Assembly: GCA_020445005.1 (NCBI GenBank)
Contig: JAGRHM010000146.1
Location: forward strand, 1 to 7,641
Length of the DNA stretch: 7,641 bases
Direction: 5' to 3'
Origin: Candidatus Competibacteraceae bacterium
GTDB taxonomy: Bacteria > Pseudomonadota > Gammaproteobacteria > Competibacterales > Competibacteraceae
Shown piece by piece: positions 2,410 to 5,946 of the stretch. Position 1 is the stretch's first letter. Each line of letters starts with the position of its first letter. Below the pieces are notes generated by a model. It saw nothing but the letters and a program-made list of their open reading frames with translations. It did not search any database and was not told where the DNA came from. A program made the translations under genes and the position numbers.

Positions 2410-4650
2410 TCAAAACAGCTTGCCGAGCAGCATGTACAACGAGGCATTGCCGCCCTGGGCGTAACCGCCCGCGAAGTAAAAGGGTCCTAGCGGCGTATCC
2501 ACGCCCAGAAACAAACTGCCTGCCGGGATTAGCGAATCGAAATCGATATCGCGATACTCATTCCAGACGCCGCCGACTTCCAACGATCCACCTGCATAGA
2601 TCGGAATAGTAAACGCTGAAGAAGCGCTATCCAGCCGATACATATAAATCACTTCGCCAAGCGCGGCGTATTCACCGGAAAGTTGACCTGGCTGATAACC
2701 CGACAGGTTCAGGAAACCGCCCAGTAAAAACAGATCCTGAATACCCATATCACCGGACAACCGGCCAGCCAAATGAAGGCGGGGAATGATTGAATATTTG
2801 CCCCAGGTATAGGCATGGGCGTAATTCAGGCTCAAGGTCCGGACATTCTGGTCAGCGCCCAGGGTGGTCAGTGAATCACGGAAGATCAGGTTGCCGGCAT
2901 AGCCCGAATTAGGGAAGCTGATGTTATCAAGCGTATCCGCTTCCCAACGCAGCGAATAACCCCCATCGTCGAACCGTCCCTCGTAGTCGGAAGGCTGCCC
3001 CAGACGCAGATCGTTACGACCGTGAGCATAGCGCAACCCCAGAGATAAACGTCCCCAACGCTCCAAGTTCCGGCCAACGTTGAAGCCCACTTCATTGCGA
3101 TAGACCCGGAAGCTACTGCTTTCTCCATAGACACCATTAAACAAATCCAGATTGTACTGCTCGTAGCGTAGATAAGGATTAATGAAATATTGCTGATCGG
3201 CATCCAGCGGCTGATAGAAATCGCTGAGCAGGGCGATATTGCTGCCCAACTGGATAAAATTGCGCCATTGACCGCCCAGATCATTCAGTTCCGACATGGT
3301 GTAGGCCGCACTGACGTCGAATTCCGCATCACCTTTGAGATTAGCGCCGAGAAACAATCCGAATTGCAACGTATCCGTACCGATATCTTTAGGCACGGTC
3401 TCGACCACCAAACCGGTTTGGCCATGCTCTTTAGCCAGCGTGTAGTTAACCCGCTGGAAGTCGCCCATGCCATAAATTTCGTTCAGGTTGCGATTGAGTT
3501 TCTGCGGATCAAGCCGGTCGCCAGGTTTAATCTGCAATTGTTGCTCAATAACCTGGTCGGACAATCGGGAACCGTTATTGATGCGAATAAAGTCGATGAC
3601 CGGTTGATCGGAACCCGGCGCCAGCGGCAGAGTGGCGAGGTAGACCTGGTAGCCTTCTGGAGAGATAGAGAGTCGACTCAGATCGCTTCTTTTTCCTTGA
3701 GCGGCGATATAACCGAAGCGGACGGCATCGGGGGAACGGTCGAAATCGATGCTGGACACGTCCTGAAGATCCGGCGTGATCAGGATATCCTTTTTTCCCA
3801 GAGTTTTGACCTGCTCTATCACATTACGCACCGTCAGGATGGTGGTCAACTGATTGGTCACCGACAAAAACGAATTCAGTTCGTCGGCGGGCGCCAGGGG
3901 CGCGCCGACATCCACCGCGATAACGACATCGGGGCGGCAGAGTTTTCGGACGACATCAATGGGCAGATTGTTAGAAACACCTCCATCCACCAGGATTTTT
4001 CCATCCAGTTGCACCGGCGCCAAGGCGCTGGGGATGGACATGCTGGCGCGCATCGCCTTAGCCAGCTCACCAGAACCGAGCACAACCGGTTCGCCGGTCG
4101 CCAGATCGGTAGCGACCGCCCGGTAGGGAATGCGCAGTTGGTCGAAATCATGAACACTCGCCGCCGGCAAAGACAGTTCCTCCAGCAACAGCAACAGGTT
4201 CTGGCCTTCCAGCAGGCCCTTGGGCAAAGTAACACCTTCAGCATTCAGACCGACTGTGGCGTCAATCAGCACTCGCTGTTCCTGCTTCTTGCGAAAGGGT
4301 AGGTCCGCGCGTGGCGGACCATCCTTGAAGACTTCCGGCCAGTCGATCTGCGAGAGCTTCTCCTCCATCTGTTCAGGCGTCATACCTGATGCATACAATC
4401 CGCCGATGATCGAACCCATACTCGTGCCAGCGACACAATCAATCGGAACGTGCATCTCCTCCAGGGTCTTCAGCACGCCGACATGGGCTATACCGCGGGC
4501 GCCGCCGCCGCCCAGCACCAGCCCGACGCGCGCGCGGTCCTTGGCGGCTTCGGCGGTTGCGACAAGTTCTGGAACGGGCACAACGCCAAGTCCCATCAAT
4601 AAAATCATCATCCAAAGAAACCGGCGAAGGCATAGACTTAAACTGGGCAT
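2410..4650 (-). CDS. Patatin-like phospholipase, type Vd autotransporter (PlpD-like)
   Basis: A 746-residue protein close in size to PlpD. Residues 1-35 form a Sec signal (RRFLWMMILLMGLG core, cleavage probable after AEA). The patatin domain follows: oxyanion loop GGGGARG (47-53), nucleophile elbow GTSMG (75-79, S77) and DGG (222-224, D222), the full Ser-Asp dyad of an active lipase. Residues about 350-420 read as one POTRA domain. From 425 to the end are amphipathic beta strands ending GKLF, a C-terminal aromatic typical of BamA-assembled barrels (surface-antigen family). The lipase is therefore probably displayed on or released from the outer membrane. The ATG at 4650 is preferred because it begins the signal peptide. 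A TTG start 38 codons further upstream would overlap the divergent gene and add a non-signal extension. No strong ribosome site is seen at 4650. Substrate is unknown. Confidence 0.92.
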   Translation of the reverse strand: MPSLSLCLRRFLWMMILLMGLGVVPVPELVATAEAAKDRARVGLVLGGGGARGIAHVGVLKTLEEMHVPIDCVAGTSMGSIIGGLYASGMTPEQMEEKLSQIDWPEVFKDGPPRADLPFRKKQEQRVLIDATVGLNAEGVTLPKGLLEGQNLLLLLEELSLPAASVHDFDQLRIPYRAVATDLATGEPVVLGSGELAKAMRASMSIPSALAPVQLDGKILVDGGVSNNLPIDVVRKLCRPDVVIAVDVGAPLAPADELNSFLSVTNQLTTILTVRNVIEQVKTLGKKDILITPDLQDVSSIDFDRSPDAVRFGYIAAQGKRSDLSRLSISPEGYQVYLATLPLAPGSDQPVIDFIRINNGSRLSDQVIEQQLQIKPGDRLDPQKLNRNLNEIYGMGDFQRVNYTLAKEHGQTGLVVETVPKDIGTDTLQFGLFLGANLKGDAEFDVSAAYTMSELNDLGGQWRNFIQLGSNIALLSDFYQPLDADQQYFINPYLRYEQYNLDLFNGVYGESSSFRVYRNEVGFNVGRNLERWGRLSLGLRYAHGRNDLRLGQPSDYEGRFDDGGYSLRWEADTLDNISFPNSGYAGNLIFRDSLTTLGADQNVRTLSLNYAHAYTWGKYSIIPRLHLAGRLSGDMGIQDLFLLGGFLNLSGYQPGQLSGEYAALGEVIYMYRLDSASSAFTIPIYAGGSLEVGGVWNEYRDIDFDSLIPAGSLFLGVDTPLGPFYFAGGYAQGGNASLYMLLGKLF

Positions 4651-4696
4651 GGGACGCAACCGCGATGGGCTATGGTTTGAGGGGGTATTCAGCGAA

Positions 4697-4724
4697 ATTT
4701 CAGATAGTGTATGCCAGATTTCAG
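4697..4724. promoter_or_regulatory. Paired ATTTCAG repeats in the divergent promoter region
   Basis: Two exact ATTTCAG copies (4697-4703 and 4718-4724) are 21 bp apart, two helical turns. They lie in the 102-bp gap between the patatin gene and the Trp-rich peptide gene. The first also overlaps the palindrome GAAATTTC (4694-4701). They could bind a regulator of one or both genes. No convincing sigma-70 promoter was found here on either strand. Confidence 0.25.
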
Positions 4725-4752
4725 CGGTAATATGAAGCGACAGGAGACGGTC

Positions 4753-5121
4753 ATGACTGATCAAGAAAACGATTTCTTACCAAATGAAACCGAGATGGTA
4801 GAATCGGAACTTTGCGAACGCCGAAATTTTCTAGTGGGTCTGGGCAAATGGTCAAAAGCAGTGATCGGCGGCGTGTTGCTGGGTGGGTTACTCGCCCCTG
4901 GGCGTGACGCTGAAGCCGTAGGCTGGGCGAATCGCGATGGTGGCAAGGGCAGTTGGGTAAACTTCCCAGGCGGTTGGGGTCCCGGCTGGTACAACCGGCG
5001 CCCCGGCGGCTGGTACAACCGGCGGCCTGGCTGGTATAACCGGCGACCGGGCGGCTGGTACAATCGGCGGCCCGGCTGGTATAACGGCCCCGGCTGGGGC
5101 GGCAGTTGGTTCAATCGCTAA
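4753..5121 (+). CDS. Tat-leader W-x-N repeat peptide, probable cyclophane RiPP precursor (GrrA/OscA-like)
   Basis: A 122-residue peptide in three parts. Residues 1-22 are acidic. Residues 23-55 look like a twin-arginine export signal: ERRNFLVG, a hydrophobic stretch at 36-48, then AEA with possible cleavage after 55. The rest is rich in Gly, Trp, Tyr, Asn, Arg and Pro. It contains eight W-x-N triplets, starting at W58, W68, W79, W87, W94, W102, W109 and W119; the middle five are WYN within GWYNRRPG units. W-x-N is the site that radical-SAM cyclophane synthases cross-link in GrrA/OscA and related triceptide peptides, so a modified exported peptide is inferred. AGGAG at 4742-4746, 6 nt before the ATG, selects 4753 over in-frame ATGs at 4711 and 4732. 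The next gene begins 3 nt after the stop and carries a SPASM-like domain. That it is a gene is near certain; modification is unproven. The alternative is an unmodified surface or cell-envelope protein. Confidence 0.85.
   Translation: MTDQENDFLPNETEMVESELCERRNFLVGLGKWSKAVIGGVLLGGLLAPGRDAEAVGWANRDGGKGSWVNFPGGWGPGWYNRRPGGWYNRRPGWYNRRPGGWYNRRPGWYNGPGWGGSWFNR
4984..5085 (+). repeat. In-frame 45-bp tandem repeat encoding GWYNRRPG units
   Basis: Two full 45-bp copies (4984-5028 and 5029-5073) each encode GWYNRRPGGWYNRRP, followed by a partial third ending in WYN. Within a copy the sub-units are 24 and 21 bp. The two copies differ at five bases (TAC/TAT, CGC/CGA, CCC/CCG, AAC/AAT, CCT/CCC), all at third positions and all silent. 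The duplication is therefore not brand-new, and the peptide sequence appears to be conserved by selection. Confidence 0.9.
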
Positions 5122-5124
5122 CTC

Positions 5125-5946
5125 ATGCCTATGAATGAATTCATCCGTAATATTCCACTGCATTGTCTGCCGCTCGGCTCGAAGGAACAGATTATCGTCC
5201 GCACCCATGAACCGGCGGCGCTTCCTGCTGCTTTAGCGAGCGAGAATCCTGAACAGGTCATCGCGGTGCAACTACTCTCGTTAGCCGCCGATTCCGAATC
5301 TCTGAACGCCTGGGCGGCGGGCTTGCCGGTAGAACTGGTCATGGCGGATCCGGCTACCGAGTTTCCCCTGTTGTATCGCCACACTCCGTTGCTCGACCAG
5401 CATCCGGTGCGAGTGGTTGTCCCCGTTCGGCCCGGATTCTTTAACGCGGTTAAAACAGCAGTGGCGCTGGATTTCGCAGTGCAACTGGACGTGGGGCAGC
5501 CTGATCCAGCGTTGATTGAAGAGCTGGCGGCAGTGTTAAAATTTTATCTTCATCAATCGACGGTAGCGCAACCGATTGAGTATTTCCAGGGAGCGCTGCT
5601 CGGCTTTTACCACGAAGAACCGGCGTCGCTGTGGGCTATTCTCGATGAAGATCCCCAGTGGCTGCGCTATGTTGCCGATGATGGCGCAGAGTCACTGAAC
5701 GGACGGCTGGCCGGAGCCGGGATCAAGACATTGGCGCCCGATGTCGAGTTGGATGTTTGGATCGAGCAGGTTCTAGCGATGCACGAGGAATGCCGTAACT
5801 GCGAGTTTCTCCGCCATTGTGGCGGCTACTTCAAGTGGCCGCGCCAGGATTACGATTGCGCCGGCGTTAAACGGCTGTTCAGTGAATTACGAGAGGCTGC
5901 TAGCGAGCTGCGCCGCGATATCGAAGCCGCGCCGGTTTCGGAATAG
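5125..5946 (+). CDS. SPASM-like domain protein lacking the radical-SAM motif, probable partner of the repeat peptide
   Basis: A 273-residue soluble protein with no signal peptide or membrane helix. The C-terminus holds a four-cysteine cluster, C223-x2-C226-x5-C232-x12-C245, in the setting CRNCEFLRHCGGYFKWP. This closely resembles the SPASM auxiliary Fe-S region (CxxC...CGGxY...C) of radical-SAM peptide maturases of the GrrM/OscB and FxsB type. Only one other cysteine exists (C14), so the CxxxCxxC SAM-cluster motif is absent. The preceding part (about 92-150) alternates predicted strands and helices (VRVVVPV, then AVQLDV, then PIEYFQ), compatible with a barrel remnant. The gene starts 3 nt after the peptide gene with no clear ribosome site, suggesting translational coupling; ATG 5131 is an alternative start. 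A role in binding, modifying or presenting the repeat peptide is inferred. It could be a truncated maturase that needs a radical-SAM enzyme encoded elsewhere. Confidence 0.8.
   Translation: MPMNEFIRNIPLHCLPLGSKEQIIVRTHEPAALPAALASENPEQVIAVQLLSLAADSESLNAWAAGLPVELVMADPATEFPLLYRHTPLLDQHPVRVVVPVRPGFFNAVKTAVALDFAVQLDVGQPDPALIEELAAVLKFYLHQSTVAQPIEYFQGALLGFYHEEPASLWAILDEDPQWLRYVADDGAESLNGRLAGAGIKTLAPDVELDVWIEQVLAMHEECRNCEFLRHCGGYFKWPRQDYDCAGVKRLFSELREAASELRRDIEAAPVSE

Follow-up and report, generated by a model that had tools for sequence, protein, structure and literature searches.

The window analysed here is the whole 7,641-nucleotide stretch of contig JAGRHM010000146.1 (C111) from a Candidatus Competibacteraceae bacterium. 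The parent assembly, GCA_020445005.1, comprises 3.88 Mb in 855 contigs and has a completeness rating of 75.6%. The window contains a gene for a W-x-N precursor peptide, followed after 3 nt by a gene for a pseudo-radical-SAM (S-adenosylmethionine) protein, hereafter the pseudo-enzyme (Table 1). Together with a maturase encoded on another contig, the pair probably constitutes a cyclophane-type radical-SAM peptide system that is split over the genome and has a pseudo-enzyme partner. Open reading frame (ORF) calls bear out the two genes, their coordinates, and their spacing as given in a preliminary description of this DNA, and likewise its statement that no other maturase lies in the window. Most of the aligned pseudo-enzyme homologues start at the ATG equivalent to position 5131.

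Table 1. Features of the precursor and pseudo-enzyme genes, in window coordinates.
Feature	Position	Strand	Basis
W-x-N precursor peptide gene	4753..5121	+	ORF, 122 aa including stop; AGGAG just 5'
Leader, residues 1-55	4753..4917	+	RRNFL twin-arginine-like (R23-R24), LGKWSK with K35, AxA ending at 55
Predicted core with all eight W-x-N	4918..5118	+	Motif positions
Pseudo-radical-SAM protein (pseudo-enzyme) gene	5125..5946	+	ORF, 273 aa including stop; alternative start 5131
CX2CX5CGGYFKWPX6C, probable auxiliary II (Aux II) [4Fe-4S] ligands	5791..5859	+	Conserved in listed homologues; TrnC scheme; SPASM C-terminus alignment

The precursor peptide has aromatic-x-Asn repeats of the kind found in triceptide precursors. 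Its W-x-N triplets are at residues 58, 68, 79, 87, 94, 102, 109, and 119, and all follow the AxA site, whose last residue is 55. The count of eight reported earlier is correct and is not a product of composition: shuffles of the core residues contain a mean of 1.17 W-x-N, and 0 of 100,000 reach eight. The twin arginine and AxA are present in the leader, and the twin-arginine translocation (Tat) signal model TIGR01409 scores 13.2 bits against a cut-off of 16.7. Relatives of the peptide occur in 30 of the 39 family genomes. W-x-N peptides are dispersed, with several per genome in many genomes and up to five matches, some of these matches being pieces of a single ORF. The window genome has two, the window's own and one on contig C304. 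The sequences RRx[FLVI]L and [AV]xA are found in 58 of 58 W-x-N ORFs with a WSxxVI leader (59 W-x-N ORFs examined), which points to Tat export.

The pseudo-enzyme has the cysteine pattern C223-X2-C226-X5-C232-GGY-X9-C245. The CxxC-x5-CGGY-type cluster of the preliminary description is therefore present, but the last spacer is X9, not x10. The same description rightly noted the absence of the radical-SAM motif CxxxCxxC, which is missing from the window protein and from all 240 listed homologues. All 240 keep CX2CX5CX12C. The Cys set is invariant, and GYFKWP near-invariant, among the 80 aligned and the 240 listed homologues. CX2CX5C plus a further Cys is the arrangement of a half SPASM or twitch domain, and by this sequence pattern C223, C226, C232, and C245 are the probable ligands of a [4Fe-4S] cluster at the Aux II site. 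The SPASM model TIGR04085 scores 14.2 bits against 27, and the Aux I cysteines and the X3C cysteine are absent.

The predicted structure of the pseudo-enzyme has the radical-SAM/SPASM fold, and the chain matches radical-SAM/SPASM enzymes over residues 1-266. The protein had been described as SPASM-only, an anatomy that does not hold: the predicted fold is radical-SAM/SPASM almost from end to end, with just half of the SPASM ligand set. A structure unrelated to SPASM, named earlier as grounds for rejection, did not emerge. In a profile comparison with hhalign, the Cys region pairs with the C-terminal SPASM part of the remote maturase. Judged on the model, the pseudo-enzyme seems to be a degenerate version of the entire maturase fold in which the probable Aux II site alone has survived. 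No name for its family was found in Pfam or NCBIfam; a Pfam search with the window protein gave no match, and NCBIfam gave none above cut-off. TIGR04347 (pseudo-SAM/SPASM) resembles it by name alone, as a SPASM protein without radical-SAM function, and gives no match to it at E up to 1.

The wider pseudo-enzyme family was drawn from protein database entries, which come without gene neighborhoods. One distant listed member is labelled Pyrinomonadaceae, and the family thus extends beyond Pseudomonadota. No relatives were found in 397 other Pseudomonadota genomes at E <= 1e-10, in the viral contigs searched, or in PLSDB plasmids searched with P0148. Close relatives of the window locus belong to Candidatus Competibacteraceae wherever a family is given; the same holds for the three loci from a genome-contig scan with the window protein, one of which carries no label finer than Proteobacteria. 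Two listed relatives bear the misleading name 'sulfatase maturation enzyme AslB'. The window genome has a second, cut-off copy (L094, G000:C431:3149-3493), 83% identical over residues 157-271; it lies at the end of a contig, flanked by the usual genes, and possibly comes from a second strain in the assembly. In G016:C174 (L032), the copy is split over two frames, and stops interrupt the matched stretch, so that it looks broken or misassembled.

A full radical-SAM/SPASM maturase is encoded elsewhere in the window genome, on a different contig (C404), and its predicted structure opens with a barrel strand at residue 4. Maturase and pseudo-enzyme co-occur across the family genomes, in a table that includes discordant genomes as scored, uncorrected for possible assembly gaps. 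Most family genomes read have the peptide and pseudo-enzyme genes together and the maturase elsewhere. In genome G001 the order is peptide, pseudo-enzyme, maturase, in one operon; the maturase ATG overlaps the pseudo-enzyme stop (ATGA), after which the contig ends. Protein entry P0331 (384 aa) begins exactly with the G001 maturase start, P0121 is the G001 pseudo-enzyme, and both entries have the same longest contig, of 40,021 nt.

Exact matches of longest-contig size were used as a proxy for linkage among distant homologues known from the protein database. Eight of the 38 listed distant maturases (those outside the close Competibacteraceae group, by the division made here) share this size with one of 120 listed pseudo-enzymes. 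When the sizes were slid by 1 to 50, the mean was 0.38 and the maximum 2. One of the eight is a 7.17-Mb contig and indicates one chromosome, not adjacency. The 82 Competibacteraceae-type maturases gave 0 matches with close pseudo-enzymes, as expected if the genes are far apart there. Two matches of Competibacteraceae-type maturases (P0281 and P0290) with distant pseudo-enzymes, at lengths of 1395 and 1645 nt, appear coincidental.

W-x-N-type precursors with nearly the same leader adjoin the maturase in 16 other genomes; no W-x-N peptide lies beside it in the stretches read from the window genome, G031, G034, and G035. The earlier suggestion of a stand-alone recognition or auxiliary protein that cooperates with a remote enzyme finds good support in these precursors, by the maturase on the other contig, by co-occurrence, and by the G001 operon. 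Frequent maturase neighbors (L075:422-2752 and relatives) are a Lnb_N/DUF7840 protein and a DUF3015 small protein. One maturase, P0248, is 85% identical to that of the window genome and is labelled Synechococcaceae cyanobacterium, probably from a misbinned contig.

The precursors differ in the residue that follows LG[KR]WS. A motif scan of all fetched loci, which came from searches seeded with the window's own proteins, demanded RR plus L[GS][KR]WS and gave 64 distinct leader-bearing W-x-N ORFs. The residue is K in 26 of the 26 ORFs that adjoin a pseudo-enzyme, the G001 operon included. In the 38 others it is Q (35), R (2), or H (1); 17 of these, spread over 16 genomes, are no more than 1.5 kb from a maturase, and 21 stand alone, one of them frame-disturbed (L131). 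A W-x-N peptide is beside the pseudo-enzyme in 26 of the 29 genomes that have one. In G025 and G010 the contig starts ~105 and ~82 nt upstream. In G030 (L089:9050-9330) the peptide is truly absent between an intact pseudo-enzyme and the patatin-like gene. A homologue without a W-x-N peptide had been proposed as a refuting case, and G030 answers to it in part, having none adjacent but two elsewhere.

These observations are explained, with moderate confidence, by a W-x-N precursor and a pseudo-radical-SAM protein that serves as the non-catalytic partner subunit of the intact maturase on another contig. Maturase and pseudo-enzyme would associate as a heterodimer, in which the latter would carry a single [4Fe-4S] cluster in the Aux II position and help to bind or position precursors, chiefly those of the WSK leader class. 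The maturase would link each Trp to the Asn at the second position after it, generating a string of three-residue cyclophanes. The modified product would then be exported via Tat, and signal peptidase would cut off the leader. The cyclophane chemistry is suggested by the W-x-N motif and by OscB, which, in the available text of PMC11002830, joins Trp C7 to the Cbeta of Asn or Asp two residues on. A broader proposal, put at slightly less than an even chance, is that the large unnamed pseudo-radical-SAM family is the leader-reading half of split maturases, in which one enzyme serves many dispersed precursors and its dead twin adds a second leader class.

Several results weigh against a partner subunit. 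G002, G006, and G009 have a pseudo-enzyme, and the maturase was not found; its Lnb_N neighbor was likewise not found there. G003, G028, and G036 have the maturase, and the pseudo-enzyme was not found; these genomes have no close relative of its patatin-like neighbor and weak or no matches to its glycine-zipper neighbor. Whole loci are missing from these six genomes, which may reflect assembly gaps or true loss. In G025, the end of a maturase-like gene lies at a contig edge. The 26 K-type leaders represent mostly one inherited locus, and the independent cases are therefore nearer two (the common locus and G001). The two W-x-N peptides found in G030 are both elsewhere and both Q-type; with no peptide beside its pseudo-enzyme, this means that the leader pairing is not strict. 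The hhalign comparison aligned the C-terminus only, so for the barrel halves homology depends on the predicted fold, and Foldseek gave no match at E <= 0.001. The maturase and peptide also fall below the curated GrrM and GrrA cut-offs: the GrrM/OscB model TIGR04261 scores 92.4 bits against 310 on the remote maturase, and the GrrA/OscA1 model TIGR04260 scores 10.1 bits on the window peptide and 20.6 bits on the G001 peptide against 31.

The best mechanistic precedent, by analogy, is TrnC/TrnD of thuricin CD. The available portions of the source (PMC12093266) describe a tight complex in which neither protein is effective alone. In TrnD, a half SPASM of the form CX2CX5C is accompanied by another conserved Cys close by; removal of the TrnD radical-SAM cluster lowers activity only slightly, and in an AlphaFold 3 model by the same authors it is mainly the leader that TrnD contacts. 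As far as this account goes, both systems pair a full radical-SAM/SPASM enzyme with a half-SPASM partner. TrnD keeps CxxxCxxC and cleaves SAM, unlike the window protein, which would represent the next step, in which the site dispensable in TrnD is gone. The products also differ, a thioether sactipeptide on one side and predicted W-x-N rings on the other, and so does the arrangement of the genes, with maturase and pseudo-enzyme well separated in most genomes read. A further difference counts against the comparison: TrnC and TrnD are described in the same portions as interacting through RRE domains, whereas no Pfam RRE/PqqD match was found on the maturase or pseudo-enzyme, in a search that used no dedicated RRE tool.

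The GrrM/OscB-GrrA/OscA1 systems, as far as the available text describes them, share with this one a repeated aromatic-x-Asn precursor and a radical-SAM/SPASM maturase. The present system differs in its pseudo-enzyme partner and in its several, dispersed precursors. ChlB (9gm3, 9gmc), anaerobic sulfatase maturase (4k36-4k39), DynA, DarW, and DarE are the closest solved structures or the nearest NCBIfam models of the remote maturase, which scores below the cut-offs of all these models. By names or entry titles they are full radical-SAM enzymes, whereas the window protein is without the SAM-cluster motif. GeoRSP was considered as a SPASM-only precedent and rejected, as TIGR04303 covers its radical-SAM portion and TIGR04302 its PqqD portion. 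The listed literature matches, which cover few subscription journals, include no recognized description of this system.

Other roles for the pseudo-enzyme are less probable. It could be an electron-transfer partner whose single [4Fe-4S] cluster exchanges electrons with the maturase as successive rings form, and which has no part in leader choice. Retention of the four Cys in all 240 listed homologues after loss of the other catalytic motifs agrees with this, and for PapB a transfer of electrons between molecules has been proposed; the role is nevertheless unlikely, as it leaves unexplained both the association of the gene with one leader class and the retention of a whole barrel. A precursor chaperone, for example one for Tat proofreading that stays on the leader until modification has taken place, is doubtful to a greater degree. 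The twin-arginine-like leaders (58 of 58) and the adjoining peptide gene in 26 genomes are in keeping with such a protein, but Q-type precursors have the same twin-arginine motif without an adjacent pseudo-enzyme, the G001 operon with the maturase points to maturation, and the predicted fold is of the maturase type. To our knowledge, this is not the fold of the known Tat chaperones.

A separate system, in which peptide and pseudo-enzyme use a different Fe-S chemistry with no radical-SAM enzyme, was the other option raised in the preliminary description. The two genes do lie together and away from the maturase in most family genomes read, but motif loss has left no known catalytic site, and the maturase co-occurs, forms a single operon with the pair in G001, and shares contigs in the distant set. 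Such chemistry found no supporting evidence, is not needed, and is considered very improbable. Just as hard to credit is a decaying, functionless relic of a duplicated maturase: the frame-broken copy in G016 and the pseudo-enzyme kept without an adjacent peptide in G030 would suit it, but the invariant Cys set and near-invariant GYFKWP would not, and this conservation spans genomes as distant as Competibacteraceae and the Pyrinomonadaceae record.

If the pseudo-enzyme is a partner subunit, a radical-SAM peptide maturase would here have a catalytically dead subunit at its side and would be an example of an enzyme that works in trans on precursors dispersed over the genome. Gene-cluster mining that expects an enzyme beside its precursor would then overlook systems of this kind. 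The available text of PMC10470005 describes what auxiliary Fe-S clusters do in radical-SAM maturases as largely enigmatic. A natural partner that has one auxiliary site and has lost the SAM site would make the auxiliary role testable apart from catalysis.

At five loci (L114, L119, L122, L125, and L127), secreted-looking SnoaL_3/DUF4440-like proteins, a call based on the Pfam scan of one of them, are encoded directly 5' of stand-alone W-x-N peptides. The window neighbors are ordinary and include a partial HMGL-like gene and an AMP-binding ligase. An Rfam scan of the window gave no family at its gathering score. A b-type cytochrome-like gene has a profile score below its cut-off, and a small gene is presumably a cytochrome c'. 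Positions 2410-4764 encode a divergent patatin-like protein with a C-terminal BamA-like match. In its longest reading, from a TTG start, this ORF runs 12 nt into the start of the peptide gene, and because of this overlap its true start is probably further in.
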